A stretch of 34,166 nucleotides of DNA from a virus. The stretch spans positions 1-34,166 of the IMG/VR virus record IMGVR_UViG_3300045119_000271; one strand, given 5' to 3'. Below the pieces are notes generated by a model that had not been told where the DNA came from, did no database searches, and saw nothing but the letters and a program-made list of their open reading frames with translations. A program made the translations under genes and the position numbers. Of the stretch, positions 7,639-25,309 are shown in pieces (position 1 is the first letter of the stretch; every line of letters begins with the position of its first letter).

Positions 7639-8166
7639 GTGACGACGCACAAGGCGCACCCAAAGGCCCCCGAGACGGATCCCGACGCGCCGCGCGTCGC
7701 GCGGCTGGCCACGCGCGCCGGGGTCGAGCCGGTCTATCCGCGCTGGGCGCATCAGGCGGGCGGGACCGAGCTCGTCGTCTATTCGGAGGCCGAAGCGCTC
7801 GCGCTCGGCGACGACTGGAACTGGGTCCCGCCGCCGCCGCCGCCGGTGCTGACGGCGCTCGAGCCCGCCACCGTCGCGATCGGCGATCCCTCCTTCACGC
7901 TGCACGTCCACGGCACCGGGTTCCTCGACGACGCCGTGATCGTGTTTGCCGATCACGACGAGCCGACGACGGTGGTCTCGCCGACCGAGGTCACGACCGG
8001 CGTCGACATGAGCCTCTGGCTCGGGCCGGATACGGTGCCGGTGACCGCGCGCAATGCCGACGGCGTCGTGAGCAACGCGCTCGACTTCGTGTTCACCGAG
8101 GCGCCCGCGTCACGCAGCCGCCCGGGCCATGGGCACGGCAAGCACGCCGCGCATGAGGGGGATTAG
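7639..8166 (+). CDS. IPT/TIG (Ig-like) domain structural protein
   Basis: A 175-residue protein with GTG start at 7639 behind a GAGGAGGG site. After a six-proline run (residues 66-71) comes an Ig-like IPT/TIG domain: LTALEPATVAIGDPSFTL, then VHGTGFLDDAVIVF, then PVTARNADGVVSN. IPT/TIG folds on virions often decorate the capsid or bind carbohydrate. The C-terminus is His/Gly/Arg-rich. An in-frame ATG at 7573 would overlap the previous gene by 65 bases and is less likely. Confidence 0.7.
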   Translation: MTTHKAHPKAPETDPDAPRVARLATRAGVEPVYPRWAHQAGGTELVVYSEAEALALGDDWNWVPPPPPPVLTALEPATVAIGDPSFTLHVHGTGFLDDAVIVFADHDEPTTVVSPTEVTTGVDMSLWLGPDTVPVTARNADGVVSNALDFVFTEAPASRSRPGHGHGKHAAHEGD

Positions 8167-8168
8167 GC

Positions 8169-8423
8169 GTGTCCAACGACTACTACAACAAAGCCGCGCC
8201 GATCACGCCCTCCGACACGGTGAACATCGCCGGCGGCCCGCCCGGCCTGCTCGTCGACGCGGTCTATAGCGGGGCCGGCGGCACGGTCGCGGCGGTCTTT
8301 CAGGACGACACCGTCGTGAGTTTCACGACGGTCGCGGGCGAAATCCTGCCGATTCGGATCAAGCGCGTCAACGCGGCCGGCACGGCGGCGACGCTGCTGG
8401 TCGCGCTCTGGGCAACGCCATGA
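8169..8423 (+). CDS. Spike-base-like small structural protein
   Basis: An 84-residue protein with GTG start two bases after the previous stop. The pattern ITPSDTVNIA, then AVYSGAGGTVAAVFQDD, then GEILPIRIKRVNAAGTAAT resembles the short beta-barrel proteins called spike base in gene transfer agents and phages (RCAP_Rcc01079-like, by recall). In those systems it anchors head spikes on the capsid. Next to the IPT/TIG gene this suggests a head-fibre pair. The TGA overlaps a micro-ORF start. Confidence 0.6.
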   Translation: MSNDYYNKAAPITPSDTVNIAGGPPGLLVDAVYSGAGGTVAAVFQDDTVVSFTTVAGEILPIRIKRVNAAGTAATLLVALWATP

Positions 8424-8500
8424 ACGCCGCGCTGAGATACGGCAAGGGCGGCAAGGTCGCCGGCGGCGGGAAGACCGTCGGCAAGGGCAAGGGGAAGTGA
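8420..8500 (+). CDS. 26-residue Lys/Gly micro-protein
   Basis: A tiny frame starting with ATG at 8420, overlapping the previous TGA (ATGA), and ending at 8500 where its TGA overlaps the next gene's GTG (GTGA). The product is almost only Gly and Lys after the first seven residues (KGGKVAGGGKTVGKGKGK). The perfect couplings on both sides argue for translation; it may serve mainly to carry ribosomes to the next gene, whose ribosome site lies inside it. No function can be assigned. Confidence 0.45.
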   Translation: MNAALRYGKGGKVAGGGKTVGKGKGK

Positions 8501-9231
8501 CGTATCGCGATCTCATCCAGGGCGCGCTGCAGGACCTGCAGATCGTGGCGGCCGGCGATACGCTGAGCGCCGACGACGCGCAGCTCGGGCTGGACCGGCT
8601 CAACGACTGGATCGACGCGCTCGCGTTGGAAGGGCTCACGATGCCGCAACTGGTCGGCACGACCTGGCCGCTGCTGCCCGGCATCGAGAAATATCTCGTC
8701 GGCCCCACCGTGCTGCCCCCCGGGATCCAGATCCCGAAGCCCGTCAGCCCGCAGGCGATTGCGAACATCGGCTATTACGACACGACCCTCACGCCGACCC
8801 AGATCATCCTGCTGGGCGGCGTGATCACGGACCAGAGCATCGTCGCGCGGACGGCGGGCGCCTTCCCCTCGGCGGTCCCGCTGAGTTTCTATTACGATCC
8901 GACGCCCGGCCCGATCGGGGAACTGCACGTGTTTCCGACCCTCACGGGCACGACGCTGCGCCTCGTCCTCTATGCGCCCGGCCTCCTCGGCCAGGTCCAG
9001 CTCACGGATCTCGTCGCGCTGCCCGCCGGCTATCGGCGCTTCGTTCGATCGAATCTCACCGTGGAGCTCGCCGCCGCGTTCGAGAAACCGGTCCCGCCCG
9101 CGATCCTGCGGATTGCGACCGACTCGATGATGCGCGTGAAAACGGCCAACCTGCGGATCAGTGACTTGGGGTTCGACCCCACGATCCCCGGTGGGTCCGG
9201 TCACGGCTACGACATCCGGACGGACCAGTAG
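8497..9231 (+). CDS. Head-completion / tail accessory protein, P22 gp4-like
   Basis: A 244-residue protein with GTG start at 8497. The N-terminus TYRDLIQGALQDLQIVAAGD, then ADDAQLGLDRLNDWIDAL, is the helical signature of P22 gp4-type adaptor proteins that bind the portal and close the head. It is longer than P22 gp4 (166), with a beta-rich middle and a C-terminal helical part. It directly precedes the gp10-like gene, the same order as in P22. Confidence 0.75.
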   Translation: MTYRDLIQGALQDLQIVAAGDTLSADDAQLGLDRLNDWIDALALEGLTMPQLVGTTWPLLPGIEKYLVGPTVLPPGIQIPKPVSPQAIANIGYYDTTLTPTQIILLGGVITDQSIVARTAGAFPSAVPLSFYYDPTPGPIGELHVFPTLTGTTLRLVLYAPGLLGQVQLTDLVALPAGYRRFVRSNLTVELAAAFEKPVPPAILRIATDSMMRVKTANLRISDLGFDPTIPGGSGHGYDIRTDQ

Positions 9232-10707
9232 ATGCCCGCCTATCCCGGCTTCATCGGCGGCTCGGCGCCCAGCCAGAGCGTGATCGCGACGAGCGAGCGC
9301 ACGGTCAATTTCTACGTCGAGACGATCGGCACCGAGGGGCCGCAGCATAAGACCGCGCTCTATCCGACGCCGGGGCAACAGCCGTGGATCTCGACCGCGT
9401 CGGCCAGCGGCGCGCTCGTCGATGTGAATGCCAGCGCGGGCATTGCGGTCGAGGACCGCGCCTTTGTCGTGATCGGCGCCGGCCTGTATGAAATCTTTCC
9501 CAACGCCACGATCGTGCGACGCGGGATCGTGGCCCAGGGCGTCCCGCCCGCGCAGCTGACCTACAACGGCATCACGGGCGGGCAACTGCTCGTCGCCAGT
9601 GGCGGCAACGCCTATTGCTTTGCCCTCAGCAGCAACACCCTCACCCAGGTCCTCAACGGTGAGGCCACGCAGATCGGCATGCTCGACGAGTACTTCCTGG
9701 CGCTCAACGCGACGACCGGGAAACTCCGGCTCAGTAATCTCAACGACGGCCTGACCTGGGACCCCACGCAGTTCGCGCTGCGCAGTGCGCAGCCGGATCG
9801 CTGGGCGGCGATGCGCGTCAATCCGCCGGACATCTGGCTGCTCGGCCGCAACACCGGCGACGTCTGGTTTGATGCCGGGACGAGCCCCTTTCCGCTCGCC
9901 GCGCGGACGGGTCTCAACATCCAGTACGGCATCGTCGCGCCGGCCTCGTTCGCCTTTACGGCCGGGCAGGGCTTCTGGTTGACGCAGAGTCAGGACGGCG
10001 CCGGCCTCATCGTGCAAAGCAGCGGCTATGGCCCGCAGCCGATCAGCACGCTCGAGGTCGCGACCGCGATCGCCGGCTATCAGCGCACGGCGAGCATTCG
10101 CGATGCCGAAGCCTTCGTCTACCGCATGGCCGGCCACACGCTCTATGTGCTCCGCTTTCCCACGGCCAATGCGACCTGGCAGTACGACCTCAGCACCCAG
10201 AAGTGGACCGAGCTGGGCTCGTGGAACGCGGCGCGCGGCGACTACGACGTGTGGCGGCCGCGGTTTCATGTCTACGCGTTCGAACACCATATCGTCGGCG
10301 AAGCGCAGACCGGGACGCTCTCGCTGCTCGACGTGACCTACAGCACCGAGTCCACCGGCGACTTTGTGCGGCGGCTGCGCCGCGGCCCGGTGCTGATCCA
10401 GGACCTGCAGCGGCTCTCCCTGCGCCGCTTCGAGCTCGTGCTCGAGGCGGGCCTCGGCCTGGCGACGGGGCAGGGGAGCGACCCGCAGCTCCTGGCCCGC
10501 TTCTCGGCCGACGGAGGCCAGACGTGGGGCGTGTGGCGGTCGGGCGGCGTCGGCCGGATCGGCCAGTACCTGCGGCGCGCGGTCTTCACGCGGCTCGGGT
10601 CGCCGCGCCTGTTGGTCGCCGAGGTCGTGATGACGGATCCGATCCCGTGGCGGATCATCGATGCGCTGATTAATCACGAGAGCACGGGGGGAGCCAGTGC
10701 CGCGTGA
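9232..10707 (+). CDS. Packaged DNA stabilization protein, P22 gp10-like
   Basis: A 491-residue beta-propeller-like protein, near the length of P22 gp10 (472). It begins with PGFIGGSAPSQSVIATSERT and VNFYVE, typical of the family, and has repeated W/F-containing blades (LRLSNLNDGLTWDPTQF, WRPRFHVYAFEHHIVGE). gp10 proteins form a hexameric ring below the adaptor and plug the DNA exit channel. The gene abuts the gp4-like gene and its TGA overlaps the GTG of the next gene. Confidence 0.85.
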   Translation: MPAYPGFIGGSAPSQSVIATSERTVNFYVETIGTEGPQHKTALYPTPGQQPWISTASASGALVDVNASAGIAVEDRAFVVIGAGLYEIFPNATIVRRGIVAQGVPPAQLTYNGITGGQLLVASGGNAYCFALSSNTLTQVLNGEATQIGMLDEYFLALNATTGKLRLSNLNDGLTWDPTQFALRSAQPDRWAAMRVNPPDIWLLGRNTGDVWFDAGTSPFPLAARTGLNIQYGIVAPASFAFTAGQGFWLTQSQDGAGLIVQSSGYGPQPISTLEVATAIAGYQRTASIRDAEAFVYRMAGHTLYVLRFPTANATWQYDLSTQKWTELGSWNAARGDYDVWRPRFHVYAFEHHIVGEAQTGTLSLLDVTYSTESTGDFVRRLRRGPVLIQDLQRLSLRRFELVLEAGLGLATGQGSDPQLLARFSADGGQTWGVWRSGGVGRIGQYLRRAVFTRLGSPRLLVAEVVMTDPIPWRIIDALINHESTGGASAA

Positions 10708-11198
10708 GTATCGGGATCGATCCGATTCCGCAAGACGACCCGCTGGTCGATGCCACGCGCCACATGGGCGAGCGCTGGTATCGCTGGCTGTCGACGGTGG
10801 TCGATCAGTTGACGACGGCGATCGGGCGGGTGGCGCAGACGGCGACCGTCCTGCCGGCCGTGCACCGGCCGTCGACCAGCGCCGCGATCCTGCCCGTCAC
10901 GCTGCTGACGCCGACGCGGGCGGGGCTCGTCCGCGTGAGCTGGTCCGTCCAGGTGACGGCGCCCGCGACGACGAGCAGCGCGGTGACCGTGACACTCAAG
11001 TGGACGGCGAACAGCGTGGCGCAGACCGAGGCCTTTCCGGCGATCACCGGGAACACCACGGCGACGCACGCCAGCGGCCAGGTCCTGATCTATCCGACGT
11101 CGGCGCAGCCGATCACGATCGAGACGGCGTACACGAGCGTGGGCGCCGCGGCGCTCGGCTACTCGCTCGACGCGCTCGTGGAGACGGCCCCGTCGTGA
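10704..11198 (+). CDS. Putative tail protein with N-terminal helix and beta domain
   Basis: A 164-residue protein with GTG start at 10704 overlapping the gp10-like stop. Residues 18-47 form an amphipathic helix (HMGERWYRWLSTVVDQLTTA); the rest is Thr/Ser/Val-rich and beta-predicted, ending in a jelly-roll-like pattern. It sits where P22 has its tail needle (gp26), but the fold looks different, so I call it only a tail or minor fibre protein. It overlaps the acetyltransferase start (GTGA). Confidence 0.6.
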   Translation: MSIGIDPIPQDDPLVDATRHMGERWYRWLSTVVDQLTTAIGRVAQTATVLPAVHRPSTSAAILPVTLLTPTRAGLVRVSWSVQVTAPATTSSAVTVTLKWTANSVAQTEAFPAITGNTTATHASGQVLIYPTSAQPITIETAYTSVGAAALGYSLDALVETAPS

Positions 11199-11638
11199 TC
11201 CGCCGGCCGGCCACGCTGGCGGATGTGGACGCCATCGTCGCGATGGGCGCGCGGTTCCTCGCGCAGAGCGTCTACCGCGGGCACCTGGCCGACAATCCCG
11301 CGCAGGTGCGCGCGCTGGCGCAGCAGCTCATCGACGCGCCCCACGGCGACGTGCTGGTCGTCGACGCCGACGGCACGCTCGTCGGGATGCTCGCGCTCCT
11401 CGCCTATGCGCATCACCTGAGCGGCGAGTGGGTCGCCGGGGAAGTCGCCTTTTGGATCGACCCGGCGTATCGCGGGCTCGGGCTGCGGCTGCTGCGCGAC
11501 GCCGAACGCTGGGCGCGCGCGCACGGCGCGGCGCGGCTCGAACTGATTGCGCCGACCCCCGACGTGGAAACCCTGTACACGCGGCTCGGCTATGCGCCGA
11601 TCGAGCGCACCTATCAGCGGGAGATGACCGTATGCTGA
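11195..11638 (+). CDS. GNAT-family N-acetyltransferase
   Basis: A 147-residue protein with GTG start at 11195. The GNAT fold is clear: IRRPATLADVDAIVAM (strand 1, helix 1), GMLALLAYAHH (strands 2-3), then the acetyl-CoA-binding motif A GEVAFWIDPAYRGLGLRLL with R-G-L-G-L-R, then ARLELIAP and a C-terminal LYTRLGYAPIE. The enzyme transfers an acetyl group from acetyl-CoA to an unknown acceptor. It is co-translated with tail genes and directly precedes an oxygenase-like gene, so it might modify a virion or host surface molecule; that is inference. Confidence 0.85.
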   Translation: MIRRPATLADVDAIVAMGARFLAQSVYRGHLADNPAQVRALAQQLIDAPHGDVLVVDADGTLVGMLALLAYAHHLSGEWVAGEVAFWIDPAYRGLGLRLLRDAERWARAHGAARLELIAPTPDVETLYTRLGYAPIERTYQREMTVC

Positions 11639-12306
11639 CGAACTTCGCCGCCGGGCTCGCCGACCTGACGCGGCGCGCCGCCGCCAGCGCCCCGCCGACC
11701 GCCTCGCGCCCGGCCGCGTCCTCGCACCTGGGCGCCGGCTGTCTGCGCGTGCATGACGACGTGCTGGCCGACTGGCACGCCTACACCGCCGCCGTGCGCG
11801 CGTTGCCGTTTCGGAGTGTGCCGGTCGGCGCGGCGCTCTTTCACGGCATCGCGCCCTGTGAGGATGCGACGCTGGCTGACTGGATCCGCGCGCACTATCC
11901 GCACGCGGTGCCGACGCTGAGCTTCTATCGCCAGAGTCCGGCGGGGCAGGTCGAGCCGAACTTCATTCACACCGATCGCGACATGGGCGACTGGACCGGG
12001 ATTTTCTACCTCACCGTCGATCCGCCGCCCGACGACGGCACGACGTTCTGGCGCCATCGCGAGACCGGGGCCACCGCCAGCACGGCGACGACCGAGGCGG
12101 ACTTTCTCGCCGAGTGGCCGACCTGGCGCGATGCCGACACCTGGGAGCCGTGGCACACCGTCGACGCCGCGCCGAACCGGCTGGTGCTGTTTCCCGCGCC
12201 GCTCTTTCATTCGCGCGCCATCGTCGACAACTACGGCACGGCGGGCCGCGATGCGCGGTTGATTCAAGTCGTGTTCGGGACGGGCACCTTGGAGGACGAA
12301 CGATGA
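11632..12306 (+). CDS. 2OG-Fe(II) oxygenase-like protein
   Basis: A 224-residue protein. The segment NFIHTDRDMGDWTGIFYLT gives H113-x-D115, and LFPAPLFHSRA gives H193; R209 in RDARLIQVVF could bind 2-oxoglutarate. Together these form the H-x-D...H...R pattern of double-stranded beta-helix dioxygenases such as prolyl hydroxylases. GTTFWRH between them fits the cap strand. I chose the ATG at 11632, which overlaps the end of the acetyltransferase gene. The substrate is unknown. The stop overlaps the next start. The fold is inferred from motifs; activity is not shown. Confidence 0.7.
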   Translation: MLTNFAAGLADLTRRAAASAPPTASRPAASSHLGAGCLRVHDDVLADWHAYTAAVRALPFRSVPVGAALFHGIAPCEDATLADWIRAHYPHAVPTLSFYRQSPAGQVEPNFIHTDRDMGDWTGIFYLTVDPPPDDGTTFWRHRETGATASTATTEADFLAEWPTWRDADTWEPWHTVDAAPNRLVLFPAPLFHSRAIVDNYGTAGRDARLIQVVFGTGTLEDER

Positions 12307-14161: not shown

Positions 14162-15852
14162 TGGCCTTCACGTTTCAACCGTATACGTCGCCCCTGACCG
14201 CGTCGATCGCCGATCGCCTCGCGCAGCAGGGCGCCATCGAGGCGCAGCGTGCGTATGCGACCGGGAACGCGGCGGCCAACGCCGCGCTGCAGAGCGGGAA
14301 CGCGTGGAGCGGTGCGATCCAGGGCGTGGGGCAGGCGATCGGCGCGCTGCCGGGGCAGATCGCGGCCGGGCAGGCGGCCGAGCAGAACCGCGCGATCCGC
14401 GCGCAGCAGCTGCAGAGCGGCGCGCTGCAACTCGGGCAGGCGCAGCGCACGGAGCAGCGCGCCTCGTTGCTCGATCAGTACCGATCGCGCGTGGGGGAGC
14501 TCGCCAACAACCCCGCGAATTTCAACGAGGATGGCACGCTCAATCTCGACGGGCTGGCCGGGCAGATGGCCACGTTGCCGGGCGGCGCGGCGGGGCCGGC
14601 GCCGCCGGTCGATCGGGAACTGCTCGCCAGCGTGGTGCATCCGATCAACCAGGACATCACCGACGCGCGCACGGCCAAACTGGCCTGGGAAGAAAAGCAG
14701 ACCAACGCGCTCGCCCGCATTGCGGGCACGGCCTACACGCTCGGATCGAAGGACGGGAATTTTGTCGGGCACGCGCAGCTCGGCCTCGCGGCCGCGCTCA
14801 GGGGCGGGCTGATCAATCAGGACCAGGCGAATCAGTTCCTGGTGCCGATGGTCGAGCACCCCGAGGCGGTGCCGGGCCAGCTGCAGTCGATCGCCGCGCG
14901 CTCCACGGCGGCGCCGATCAAGCTGGGGAAGGACGACACGCTGGTCAGCGCAGTGATGCCGGGGCAGGTGCTCGCGAAAGGGGCCGAGGGGCCGCCGACC
15001 GAAGCCGAGCTCGCGCTCAAGGCCGCCGGGGGCGATCCGAACGCGACGAGGGCGATGGCGCTGCTCAAGCCGCCGCCGGCCCCGCGCCCGCTCAACGAGC
15101 AACTCCTCGAGGCGATTGCCAACGGGGACACGACCAAGGCGAGCCAGATCACGCAAACGCTGAAAACGGCCGCCGCGGCGGGCCGCGATCCAGACGCGGC
15201 CGCGATGGCGCGCGAGCTCGGGGGACTGCGGGCCGACGAAGCGCGCGCCCGCCTGGCCGCGCTCGCGACCACAGCCGCGGCCAAAGCGGAAGGCAAGCCC
15301 TTGCCCGCGACGGAAGCGGACAAGATTTCCGAGATCGACAAGGGCCTGGCGGCCGTCCGCGATTTGCGGGAATCCCTCAGCACGGGTGCGACGGGGGGCG
15401 TGGCACGCGCCAAAGCGACGCTCGTGCCCAATGCGCTGGCGAATCTGGTCCCGGGCGCCGCCGAAGCGAAAGCCACGCAGGCCGACATCGTGCGGGCGCA
15501 ACAAGTGGTGGGCCGGATCATCCACGGGGGCGTGCTGCGGGCGAACGATCAGGCGGCGGCCGGCAAGTACATGCCGCAACTCGATGATGCGCCCTCCGTG
15601 ATTCAATCGAAACTGGATGCCGTGGAACAAATGGCCACGGAGGGACGCGCGACCCATCTGGGCAACCTGGGGAAGAGCGGCTATAACGTGAGTCAGTTCG
15701 CCACTGCCGACACGGCGGCCCCGCCGCCGAAGCCGCCGCCACACGCCACACTGGCTCCCGGCCGTACGCAGCGCGTGGTCCAGAACGGCGTCACCTATGA
15801 CGTGGTCACCGATGCGCAGGGGCGCCTGGTCAGCAGTCAGGTGGTGCGGTAG
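14161..15852 (+). CDS. Large Ala-rich internal virion protein
   Basis: A 563-residue protein, very Ala/Gln-rich and mostly helical. The ATG at 14161 is taken; a GTG three bases upstream is equally possible. A C-terminal block, RAQQVVGRIIHGGVLRANDQ, then AAGKYMPQLDDAPSVIQSKL, is a pattern I know from phage ejection and internal virion proteins. The last 50 residues are Pro-rich followed by a small beta motif. It is probably one of three or four proteins ejected with the DNA; enzyme motifs are not visible. Confidence 0.65.
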   Translation: MAFTFQPYTSPLTASIADRLAQQGAIEAQRAYATGNAAANAALQSGNAWSGAIQGVGQAIGALPGQIAAGQAAEQNRAIRAQQLQSGALQLGQAQRTEQRASLLDQYRSRVGELANNPANFNEDGTLNLDGLAGQMATLPGGAAGPAPPVDRELLASVVHPINQDITDARTAKLAWEEKQTNALARIAGTAYTLGSKDGNFVGHAQLGLAAALRGGLINQDQANQFLVPMVEHPEAVPGQLQSIAARSTAAPIKLGKDDTLVSAVMPGQVLAKGAEGPPTEAELALKAAGGDPNATRAMALLKPPPAPRPLNEQLLEAIANGDTTKASQITQTLKTAAAAGRDPDAAAMARELGGLRADEARARLAALATTAAAKAEGKPLPATEADKISEIDKGLAAVRDLRESLSTGATGGVARAKATLVPNALANLVPGAAEAKATQADIVRAQQVVGRIIHGGVLRANDQAAAGKYMPQLDDAPSVIQSKLDAVEQMATEGRATHLGNLGKSGYNVSQFATADTAAPPPKPPPHATLAPGRTQRVVQNGVTYDVVTDAQGRLVSSQVVR

Positions 15853-21873: not shown

Positions 21874-22119
21874 ATGGCTGACGTGGACAAGGACATTGCA
21901 GTGTACGACGCGCTTCAGGGGCAGCTCGAGGCGAACCACATGAGCAAGTGGGTGCTCATTCGCGACGAGGCGCTCATTGGGGTCTACGAGAGTCTAGAGA
22001 CGGCGGCTGCCGACGCGGTCAAGAAATTCGGGCGTGGCCCATATCTCATTCGCCAGGTCGGCGCACCGCCGATCACGCTGCCGGCGTCGGTCGTCTATTT
22101 TCCGATGACGCATGGCTGA
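21874..22119 (+). CDS. DUF5678-like small protein
   Basis: An 81-residue protein. The pattern YDALQGQLEANHMSKWVLIR, then DEALIGVYESLETAAADAVK, then PYLIRQVGA matches the small DUF5678 family (by recall), whose genes in bacteria often sit next to a retropepsin-like protease, as here. The next gene starts eight bases before its end. Its codon choice is somewhat less GC-biased than its phage neighbours, suggesting later acquisition. Function unknown. Confidence 0.65.
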   Translation: MADVDKDIAVYDALQGQLEANHMSKWVLIRDEALIGVYESLETAAADAVKKFGRGPYLIRQVGAPPITLPASVVYFPMTHG

Positions 22120-22573
22120 GGTCTCGTGTGGCTTCAAGGACGTGGCGGGCGGCGCGAGCGGTGCGGACTTGCTCACGTTCTATGGACCGACGATTGCGGT
22201 CGACATCGGCTTCGACCCTGACTGGGATCCTGCGAAGAGCGGCGTGCCACTTGCGGGCATGACCGGCATCGCGGCACTGGTCGATACGGGCGCGACGGAG
22301 TGCTGTATCGACAGCGTGCTCGCCACGCAGTTGAACTTGCCGGTGGTGGACAAGCGCACGATGGCCGGCGCGCACGGCGCGCAGGATGTGAACGTCCATT
22401 TGGCGCAGGTGCATGTCCCTGGGTTACACCACGTCATGTGGGGGCAATTTTGCGCGGTGCACCTCACCGCGGGCGGGAGCGCCCACAAGGCGCTCATCGG
22501 ACGATCCTTCCTGAGTTCGTTCCAACTGGTCTATAACGGCAAGACCGGCGCGGTCAGCATCAAGTCCGAGTAA
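22112..22573 (+). CDS. Retropepsin-like aspartic protease
   Basis: A 153-residue protein. The catalytic motif ALVDTGATECCID (D58-T-G-A) followed by a hydrophobic segment (LNLPVV) is the hallmark of single-domain, retroviral-type aspartic proteases that work as dimers. The downstream AHKALIGRSFLSSFQLVYNG matches the second conserved element (IGRDxL...). It forms a pair with the DUF5678-like gene, a pairing usual in bacterial chromosomes and rare for phages. Possible roles: toxin-like cleavage, processing of the partner, or cargo unrelated to the phage cycle. Confidence 0.75.
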   Translation: MAEVSCGFKDVAGGASGADLLTFYGPTIAVDIGFDPDWDPAKSGVPLAGMTGIAALVDTGATECCIDSVLATQLNLPVVDKRTMAGAHGAQDVNVHLAQVHVPGLHHVMWGQFCAVHLTAGGSAHKALIGRSFLSSFQLVYNGKTGAVSIKSE

Positions 22574-22845: not shown

Positions 22846-22962
22846 GAGGGCTGATAGAGTTCGGCGGATCGACGGCGTGCTGGGACGGGGCATCGCGGCA
22901 ATTCAGCCGTGGTTCCGTATAGCGCGCGCCGTCGGTCCGTCGCCGGCACTCCGGAGGACCCG

Positions 22963-23118
22963 ATGGGACTACTCGAAGCGTTGATCGTGCTGCTGCTCGT
23001 CGGCTGGCTGCTCGGCGTGTTCATCGTGCCGGTCGGCGGGTCGCTGATTCATCTCCTGCTGGTCGTCGTGCTCGTGCTGATCGTCGTGCGGCTGCTGCAG
23101 GGGCGGGACGTGTTCTGA
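22963..23118 (+). CDS. Small two-helix membrane protein (lmo0937/DUF5670-like)
   Basis: A 51-residue, very hydrophobic protein with a strong GGAGGA site before ATG 22963. It has two membrane helices: LLEALIVLLLVGWLLGVFIV and IHLLLVVVLVLIVVRLL, separated by a Pro/Gly/Ser turn. The pattern WLLG...GG.IH.LLV..L matches the widespread lmo0937/DUF5670 family of bacterial membrane micro-proteins (by recall). It looks like a host-derived gene next to the attachment-like site; it could also act as a holin. Confidence 0.65.
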   Translation: MGLLEALIVLLLVGWLLGVFIVPVGGSLIHLLLVVVLVLIVVRLLQGRDVF

Positions 23119-23196
23119 CCGCTGGCGCTCCCGACTCACTCCCGACCAGCCAGCTTCAGCGAGAAAACGTTAGCAAAAACGCGCTGCAGGAGTGCC

Positions 23197-23241
23197 TTCG
23201 CAACGCAGAGGTCAGGAGTTCGATCCTCCTGCGGTCCACCA
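23197..23241 (+). other. 3' half of tRNA-Ala(CGC): probable attachment site core
   Basis: The segment starts at the anticodon loop TTCGCAA (anticodon CGC), continues with the anticodon-stem 3' strand CGCAG, variable loop AGGTC, T-stem AGGAG/CTCCT around TTCGATC, acceptor strand GCGGTCC, discriminator A and CCA. Position 70 is U, the alanine identity element (G3:U70) if position 3 is G. The 5' half is missing: GTGCC precedes the loop instead of CTGCG. This is the form of an attP core, or a prophage end, that restores the 3' half of a host tRNA gene. Confidence 0.75.
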
Positions 23242-23258
23242 TTTTAAATCAATAGAAA

Positions 23259-23300
23259 CGGGCCTAAATCGACGATTTCGAGGATCGTTGGTCAGGCCCG
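23259..23300 (-). terminator. Leftward rho-independent terminator
   Basis: Arms CGGGCCT (23259-23265) and AGGCCCG (23294-23300) form the outer stem, with inner ACGAT/ATCGT. Read leftward, the stem is followed by TTTCTATT. It overlaps the stop codon of the leftward gene ending at 23264. Confidence 0.55.
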
Positions 23301-23560
23301 CTCTGTCCAGAAAACGTGCCAAAACACCCCTTTTCACTTGATTCCACTCCCAGCCCACTCACGGTTTTTTCGGCGCGTCTGGCCTCACGACGCTGTACGA
23401 GCAGGGCGATCGCGCGCGCGAGCAGCACATCCGTCTCGTCTTCGGCGTGCTCCAGCATCCGCACAAAGTAACGCGTCTGGGCCGCGCGCCGGGCGGTGGC
23501 GCGTTCCGCTGAACGACTTAAATGTCTGCAACTACATACACTGCCTGACACGTCACACAT
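23264..23560 (-). CDS. Leftward hypothetical protein beside the attachment-like site
   Basis: A 98-residue frame from ATG 23560 to TAG 23264. The first dozen residues are Cys/Ser-rich (MCDVSGSVCSC); the core is helical and charged (AERATARRAAQTRYFVRMLE, then DETDVLLARAIALLVQRREA). Third positions in the core are strongly GC-biased, supporting coding in this direction. A terminator-like hairpin at its end and a TTGACA box before it add support. A -10-like TACGAC seven bases before the ATG implies a leaderless mRNA. I recognise no family. Confidence 0.5.
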   Translation of the reverse strand: MCDVSGSVCSCRHLSRSAERATARRAAQTRYFVRMLEHAEDETDVLLARAIALLVQRREARRAEKTVSGLGVESSEKGCFGTFSGQSGPDQRSSKSSI

Positions 23561-23589
23561 CAGGTATGTCGTACAGTGCAGAAAATGTT

Positions 23590-23636
23590 TGTCAATACAC
23601 TCATTGCTTGACAGTCTGACCATACCTGCATAGCAT
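23590..23636. promoter_or_regulatory. Second divergent promoter region with inverted repeats
   Basis: Rightward: TTGACA (23608-23613), 17-base spacer, TAGCAT (23631-23636), with ATG 23648 about five bases after the expected RNA start. Leftward: TTGACA read from 23595 to 23590, 16 bases, TACGAC (23573-23568), with ATG 23560. CAGGTATG (23561-23568) and CATACCTG (23621-23628) are an exact inverted pair, one over each promoter, and are likely regulator sites. The local sequence is AT-richer than the genes around it. Confidence 0.55.
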
Positions 23637-23647
23637 ACGCGATTGTC

Positions 23648-23893
23648 ATGACTGACAAGACATTCATTGAGCAGTTGGCGACGTATCGCCTGGAGCGCGA
23701 TCTCACGTTCGAGCAACTCTCGGCAGAGATGGGGAAGGCGGGGTACGCGATTCGGGCTCGGTCGCTGCACCTGATGTTGACCCATCGTCTGCGGACCGAA
23801 CCGCACGACCGCACGCTCTACAAGGTGCGGCGGTTTCTCGAGCACGTCAGACCGACGAAACGGCGGGCCCGCTCAGAAGGGAGCGCGGCATGA
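23648..23893 (+). CDS. XRE-type helix-turn-helix regulator
   Basis: An 81-residue protein. RDLTFEQLSAEMGKAGYAIR, then ARSLHLMLTHRLRTEPHDRT is the typical helix-turn-helix order of XRE regulators, with the T.EQL.AEMG first helix. The C-terminus is basic (PTKRRARSEG). It starts without a ribosome site a few bases from the predicted RNA start, so it is probably translated leaderless, like lambda cI from its maintenance promoter. It faces a leftward gene and overlaps the excisionase-like gene (ATGA). Confidence 0.7.
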   Translation: MTDKTFIEQLATYRLERDLTFEQLSAEMGKAGYAIRARSLHLMLTHRLRTEPHDRTLYKVRRFLEHVRPTKRRARSEGSAA

Positions 23894-24111
23894 GGGCGGA
23901 ACCGCGGATCATCGAGACGCCGTACCTCAACACGCGCGAGGCGATGGCGTACCTGCGCCTCACCTCGCCCTCGTCGCTCTACTACCTCATCAACGAGCAG
24001 CGGCTCCCCCATCTGCGCCGCGGCGGCCGGCTCCTGTTCGACAAGCGCGAGCTCGACGCGTGGTTGCGCGGGACCGACGCGATCAGCCTCGCGCGGGTGC
24101 GACGCGCATGA
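23890..24111 (+). CDS. Excisionase-like / MerR-type HTH protein
   Basis: A 73-residue protein with YLNTREAMAYLRLTSPSSLY, then YLINEQRLPHLRRGGRLLF, then DKRELDAWL: the helix-turn-helix_17 pattern of phage excisionases and related DNA-binding proteins, in which the recognition helix is followed by a wing with R..GR..F...ELD.WL. It could be the directionality factor for the nearby att-like site or a transcription factor. It overlaps the XRE gene and is followed by unrelated early genes. Confidence 0.8.
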   Translation: MRAEPRIIETPYLNTREAMAYLRLTSPSSLYYLINEQRLPHLRRGGRLLFDKRELDAWLRGTDAISLARVRRA

Positions 24112-24403: not shown

Positions 24404-24549
24404 TCCTCGTCCTGACGGTCGCCGTGGTCGTCGCGGTGATCCTCGTCGGCGGCACGGCCTGGCTGATGGTGCAGGACCAGCGGGCCGACGACCGGGTGTC
24501 GACCGCCTGGCGCGACGAACACGCGCGGGACCGGAGGCACGATGGCTGA
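24400..24549 (+). CDS. 49-residue single-helix membrane protein
   Basis: The ATG at 24400 overlaps the previous TGA. Residues 2-22 form a membrane helix (ILVLTVAVVVAVILVGGTAW), followed by a charged tail ending RRHDG. The last codons contain the ribosome site and overlap the start of the next gene at 24542. The same end sequence (RRHDG plus ribosome site) recurs at 25447-25464. Possible holin-like or membrane anchor; no specific evidence. Confidence 0.55.
   Translation: MILVLTVAVVVAVILVGGTAWLMVQDQRADDRVSTAWRDEHARDRRHDG
24532..24549 (+). repeat. 18-base gene-junction repeat, copy 1
   Basis: CGGAGGCACGATGGCTGA is identical to 25447-25464. It encodes the end of one gene (RRHDG-stop) and at the same time the ribosome site and ATG-GCT-GA start of the next. 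It is likely a shared boundary between gene modules. Confidence 0.8.
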
Positions 24550-25309
24550 GATCCACACGGGAGGCGGCATGCTGCGGACGTATCTGAATTCGCCCCAACT
24601 GAAAGCGGATTTCCTCGCCGCGATCACGCAACACGAACAGCAGGACGCCCTCATCAAAGGCACCTACGGCCGGATGAACGGGACGTTCAAGGGCTGCGCG
24701 ATCGGGTGCTCGTTGCATTCGTTGAACATCATCGGCGGCAAGGCCGCGGCGAAGAAACCGACCGGCGATCACGCGCGGTACGAGAAGGAGCTCGGCCTCC
24801 CGATCTGGTTCGCGTATCTCGAGGACCAGATCTTCGAAAACCTCCCGATGGAGCAGGCGACGACTTGGCCGCGGCGACTCGCCGAGGCGATCCCCGTCGG
24901 CGCCGTCGTCGACGACATCGTGCTTGCGAAGATCCTGCGCTGGGTGCTCGCGGACGCGGACTTCGGCGTGCGCTGTACGACGGACGACGAAGAGATTCGC
25001 GGCTACATCGATGTCGTCGTCGCGATGTTCGATGCAGAGATCGCCACCGGCGGGCATGCGACCGCCGAGCAACGCGAGGCGGCCGCCAGGGACGCCAGGG
25101 CCGCCAGGGACGCCTGGGACGCCTGGGCCGCCTGGGCCGCCAGGGCCGCCTGGGCCGCCTGGGACGCCTGGGCCGCCTGGGACGCCTGGGCCGCCTGGGA
25201 CGCCTGGGACGCCCTACATCCCGAAGGGAAAAAGGCGGACGCCTTCTTCCCCTCGCTCTCGGAGTTCGTGCTGTCTCTGGTCAGGGCCTTACCGGGAGCA
25301 ACGTCATGA
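24542..25309 (+). CDS. Phage protein with C-terminal tripeptide (AAW/DAW) repeat
   Basis: A 255-residue protein. The first 175 residues look globular and helical ([20 protein letters not shown], then [13 protein letters not shown], then [19 protein letters not shown]). Residues 181-225 are 15 units of the tripeptide [AD]-A-[WR], then a short C-terminal helix. I recall a family of phage proteins of similar build with Ala/Arg/Trp repeats whose role is unknown. It starts behind a GGAGG site and lies in the early operon. Confidence 0.65.
25082..25216 (+). repeat. 9-base coding minisatellite, 15 units
   Basis: Fifteen consecutive 9-base units of the form GCC/GAC-GCC-TGG/AGG encode [A/D]-A-[W/R]. 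Units differ by single substitutions. No stop occurs in any of the three forward frames; one alternative frame would read a collagen-like Gly-x-Pro repeat. Confidence 0.9.

Follow-up and report, generated by a model that had tools for sequence, protein, structure and literature searches.

A complete-looking attP at a tRNA-Ala(CGC) 3' half in a soil phage of Acidobacteriota that has probably lost its integrase and repressor

When a phage genome contains the 3' half of a tRNA gene, set out in the manner of an attachment site, and no recombinase can be found to act on it, what is the segment for? It might be used by an enzyme supplied from elsewhere, it might be a relic, or it might have arrived as part of a captured element, and these were the three options left standing by a first-pass annotation of the DNA considered here. 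This DNA, referred to below as the window, is an entire linear IMG/VR record of 34,166 bases. For its major capsid protein, a relative of 83% identity is encoded on a small contig of a genome of the Vicinamibacteria/gp6 class, so that a host group within the Vicinamibacteria/gp6 (Acidobacteriota) is well supported.

The segment itself (TTCGCAACGCAGAGGTCAGGAGTTCGATCCTCCTGCGGTCCACCA, 23197-23241, + strand) can be read directly as the 3' part of a tRNA-Ala(CGC), running from the anticodon loop to the CCA end and lacking the 5' half, just as had first been proposed; a search with ARAGORN detects no complete tRNA anywhere in the window, and an Rfam search gives no match. The exact 45-mer occurs in one other viral contig, L002, and in none of the GTDB genomes searched. 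With a degenerate form of the 45-mer, complete tRNA-Ala(CGC) genes with 1-4 mismatches were recovered from 14 MAGs, 13 of them titled Acidobacteria or Luteitalea and the last titled Bifidobacterium (which is taken to be misnamed). The nearest genes differ at just 1 position in 45 and come from Acidobacteria (gp6/Vicinamibacteria) genomes; in the closest of them the 5' acceptor strand, GGGCCGC, pairs with GCGGTCC of the window to give the alanine G3:U70 pair, whose U70 had been recognised from the phage half alone. In a separate pattern search, a match within 3 mismatches of the core (best 1) turned up in 22 of the 193 genomes of the class, and a reversed control pattern had 0 matches in the same genomes. 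As in attP sites of the lambda type, then, the core reproduces the 3' portion of a host tRNA gene almost exactly and reaches its 3' end. The corresponding attB would be this same portion of the host tRNA-Ala(CGC) gene, and insertion there would therefore rebuild the host tRNA.

For comparison, relatives of the phage were gathered via integrase, HTH gene and DNA pattern; several of these have a tyrosine recombinase of a divergent group, here labelled int-B, and in most of the phages with int-B the gene is adjoined by the 3' half of a tRNA. Against this background the initial reading of the segment as an attP core not only holds but can be extended, as pairs of putative integrase arm-type sites flank it on both sides. 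On the P side the pair is GCTCCCG/ACTCCCG (23127-23144, +) and on the P' side ACTCCCA/ACTCACG (23346-23363, +; kept in L002), each with a period of 11 bp. The P pair begins 115 bp before the CCA end, a position common to the relatives (115/116 bp in the window, L070, L071, L072, G012, L058 and L052-L054), and the P' pair starts 104 bp after it, within the range of +82 to +127 seen in relatives. Among 9592 background positions sampled on either strand of the window outside the site, none had both arms equally good. The arms thus have the motif and geometry of the int-B phages, so that the tRNA segment, judged by its sequence, would be a full attP and not a core alone. Two closest relatives, G006 and G007, have arms of the same 11-bp design built on a different motif, GGTTACG, which is what one would predict if each integrase dictates the specificity of its arms; no heptamer pairs of this kind are seen in L056, and three further loci from a wider arm-pattern scan (L064, L066 and L067) appear to be chance matches.

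Other elements surround the core. Direct repeats of AGAAAACGT, which had been noted as flanking the tRNA half, are real (copy 1 at 23162-23170, partly conserved in L002; copy 2 at 23309-23317, conserved there; both +), but they are distinct from the 11-bp arm pairs and, not being common to the int-B family, were rejected as arm sites. Between the core and the P' arm lies a hairpin (23252-23306, +), possibly a terminator, with a fold z-score of -4.9 and no equally stable fold among 200 shuffles; L002 has a hairpin at the same place, and in CrimD, a mycobacteriophage of cluster K, the corresponding position between core and P' arm is taken by a putative terminator (PMC3203893). Further upstream, an element at 22860-23003, ahead of and extending into a small membrane-protein gene (DUF5670) and overlapping a 19-nt inverted repeat, is matched at 77-88% identity over 68-150 bp in the otherwise divergent phages L002 (8785-8934), L004, L005, L006, G006 and G007, and is possibly a shared regulatory element. 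Also near attP is a gene unusual for a phage, encoding a retropepsin-like aspartyl protease (22112-22573, PF13975); another such gene, at 11632-12306, encodes a protein with matches to minor coat protein and 2OG-Fe(II) oxygenase.

The original remark that no tyrosine or serine recombinase is to be seen in the record is borne out by PF00589 and PF00239, neither of which has a hit. On its own a Pfam-based call of "no integrase" is unreliable for these phages, as PF00589 misses int-B in G006, G007 and G012, where blastp and a profile made from the other integrases did detect it; PHROG_1 does assign int-B as integrase (E=3e-35 for G006). A six-frame search with PHROG_1 was null in the window and positive, in the same search, in seven relatives, and tblastn with the relatives' integrases and hmmsearch with a custom HMM were likewise null in the window. 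PHROG_1 also finds tyrosine integrases missed by PF00589 in L016 (12551-13768), L017 (14861-16048) and L019 (8014-9384), which have an HWATR motif and GGW replacing LGH, so that lifestyle calls by integrase will err for phages like these. The window attP accordingly has neither a PHROG_1-type divergent integrase beside it, as int-B phages do, nor, as a lambda-type attP would, a cognate tyrosine integrase in the same element, and it is therefore named here an orphan attP, not a working integration cassette. An HTH_3 repressor is missing from the window too, as against its presence in 6 of 7 relatives. In another phage, L058 (record G208, 7886-8902), the int-B gene contains one in-frame TAA, possibly a further example of a decaying integrase beside an intact-looking attP.

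Where the missing genes would have been can be seen from relatives that keep them, a comparison already urged by the first-pass annotation. In L065 and L069 the order is att(+), P' arm, int(-), CI-like gene(-), Cro-position gene(+) and early operon(+), and the order in the window is the same minus the integrase and the CI-like gene, which would occupy 23364-23607 on the minus strand. Only 284 bp separate the P' arm from the early operon in the window, and 244 bp separate it from a promoter-like site, TTGACA-17-TAGCAT (23608-23636, +). This also disposes of the suggestion that the + frame upstream of the tRNA half (EKTLAKT onward) is the tail of a lost integrase: that frame has no match to any of ten integrases, and the vanished gene would be expected towards P' instead, on the opposite strand. 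No integrase or repressor remnant and no deletion scar was detected at 23364-23607; a minus-strand stretch at the P' arm that might be what is left of an integrase C-terminus (RREARRAEKTVSG compared with AKRRAVETVSEA of L065) ranks 114 and 54 among 2280 segments, which is not significant.

The early operon itself is retained. It begins with a small protein in the Cro position (23648-23893, +; homologues in G012, 44%, and L065, 41%), followed by an HTH_17 excisionase-like protein (23890-24111, +), an assignment made at first sight and now backed by PF12728 (E=1.5e-12) and by the PHROG_66 excisionase profile (E=2e-6). At the DNA level this gene is 91.6% identical to the one lying between int and attP in G006; the genomes of the host class contain no match to the protein at E<1e-8. 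By analogy with the relatives, it is likely to act as the directionality factor. Further along, 24542-25309 encodes a protein of 255 aa that includes a long tract of Ala/Trp/Asp repeats and matches nothing in Pfam or PHROG.

In host genomes, int-B lies directly behind a complete tRNA-Ala(CGC) gene and convergent with it in G098 and G183, the layout expected of an inserted element with its integrase on the P' side, and in G067 it lies beside a 3' half. The int-B family does use this site in hosts. One host contig, L095 (G147 C218), has the tRNA-Ala(CGC) 3' part twice on one strand, at 14513 and 22920, 8.4 kb apart, one copy being within a complete gene; this is probably another element inserted at the same attB.

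Taken together, these features suggest how the locus would once have worked. A tyrosine recombinase of the int-B group would recombine within the core and bind the CTCCCG pairs, spaced at 11 bp, on either arm, and the HTH_17 protein would probably set the direction; the genes for the integrase and the CI-like repressor, which in relatives lie between the P' arm and the early operon, would then have disappeared from this genome, while attP and the Xis-like gene were retained. On the simplest account the phage was temperate and shed these two genes without losing attP or the Xis-like gene, and it is probable, though short of certain, that this is what happened in this soil phage of Acidobacteriota, by deletion of the two genes. 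We infer deletion, as against relocation or an assembly path, and it need not have been a single step: there is no scar or remnant, and the cassette of the closest relatives, G006 and G007, is an int-Xis-attP arrangement for tRNA-Gly in the opposite orientation, so that a simple deletion starting from their arrangement would not account for the window, and an exchange of cassettes with later loss of the genes is just as likely as one deletion event. Of the three options with which this account opened, the relic is therefore favoured, in the form of a deletion derivative; a captured element is unlikely, because the order from att to early operon is that of the relatives.

Against deletion, it must be remembered that the record is linear and that, from a contig alone, a deletion variant and a wrong assembly path look alike; an integrase of some unrecognised kind might also, conceivably, be present. 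A related reading is that an integrase exists outside the record, having been relocated, having fallen in a missing end piece, or having been lost in assembling a mixture of strains. Related phages do keep the gene, and the record is short by about 0.9-1.2 kb, its ends falling that far apart on G006 and G007, but more than half of this gap is there the N-terminus of the terminase, leaving too little else, so that a 1.1-kb integrase gene is unlikely to be hidden in it unless inserted; moreover, the gene adjoins att in the relatives examined. This reading is accordingly considered improbable. Far more improbable still is that the tRNA half is a matter of chance, or a transcript-end element, and no attachment site at all: a genome without an integrase would be consistent with that, but the arm pairs have the geometry of the int-B family, and the same element is found both in phages, next to int-B genes, and in hosts, where it is integrated.

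The option of integration in trans deserves more attention, even if it is rather unlikely; it would have the orphan attP in use, the phage integrating at tRNA-Ala(CGC) by means of the int-B of a related prophage or co-infecting phage. The attP is intact in its core and in both putative arms, and int-B elements occupy host tRNA-Ala(CGC) genes, so donors exist. The core is also identical to that of L002, whose attP-Ala again has no adjoining int-B and, were the trans reading true, would be another such case. (L002 has tandem tRNA 3' halves at 9349-10957, tRNA-Gly(CCC) then tRNA-Ala(CGC), in the order other-group integrase, tRNA-Gly(CCC) half, HTH gene and tRNA-Ala(CGC) half without an integrase of its own.) Over a 188-bp match between the window and L002 the 45-bp core is identical and the remainder differs at 36 of 143 bases; at that divergence, 45 unchanged bases would be expected by neutral drift about twice in a million, and the core must therefore have been constrained for most of the time since the two separated. 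This implies either recent integrase loss in each phage or a site still working with a borrowed integrase, and recent loss accounts for the conservation equally. L002 has no recognisable P arm pair, which speaks for decay of its attP; the repressor is missing from the window too, so that lysogeny would also need foreign repression; and no attL or attR of the window phage has been seen, 193 genomes of the class having yielded no prophage of the element and one close relative, G075, on a 3.8-kb contig.

On the preferred reading of loss by deletion, the phage is most likely unable to lysogenise alone, having lost both integrase and CI-like repressor, and presumably no longer forms lysogens; it resembles a temperate phage that has been crippled naturally, or else a borrower of a relative's integrase. 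For phages of the Vicinamibacteria, a soil group with little prior study, the locus provides an attP with putative arm sites, together with a host tRNA and the integrase family that matches, and it offers a clean test case of whether integrase-less phages with an intact attP are dead ends or users of integrase in trans.

Several known systems bear comparison. The virulent lactococcal P335 phage C41431 is similarly of temperate ancestry and without an integrase gene, but keeps repressor-type genes, and the accessible part of its description mentions no attP with arms (PMC7693887). The cluster J mycobacteriophages Omega and BAKA (PMC3706429) have an attP of similar design, with a tRNA 3'-half core (44 bp) and flanking pairs of arm-type direct repeats, but their integrase is present, the tRNA is tRNA-Leu and the arm motif is TGCATAC. 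The int-B phages (L065, L069-L072, G012, G006 and G007) share the attP design and early-operon order, and several also have arms of the CTCCCG type and tRNA-Ala(CGC) as their target, whereas G006 and G007 have a tRNA-Gly target and GGTTACG arms; unlike the window, they keep the PHROG_1-type integrase and, in most of those examined, a CI/Cro-type gene. The precedent for the reading given here is the cluster K mycobacteriophage TM4 (PMC3203893), in which the integration region has been lost and Xis kept; in the window, likewise, integrase and repressor are absent and the Xis-like gene and gene order are retained. The two differ in extent, as TM4 lost attP together with int in a deletion of about 3.5 kb and its repressor was lost at the right end, whereas in the window the repressor is missing beside att, and attP is kept with both of its arms.
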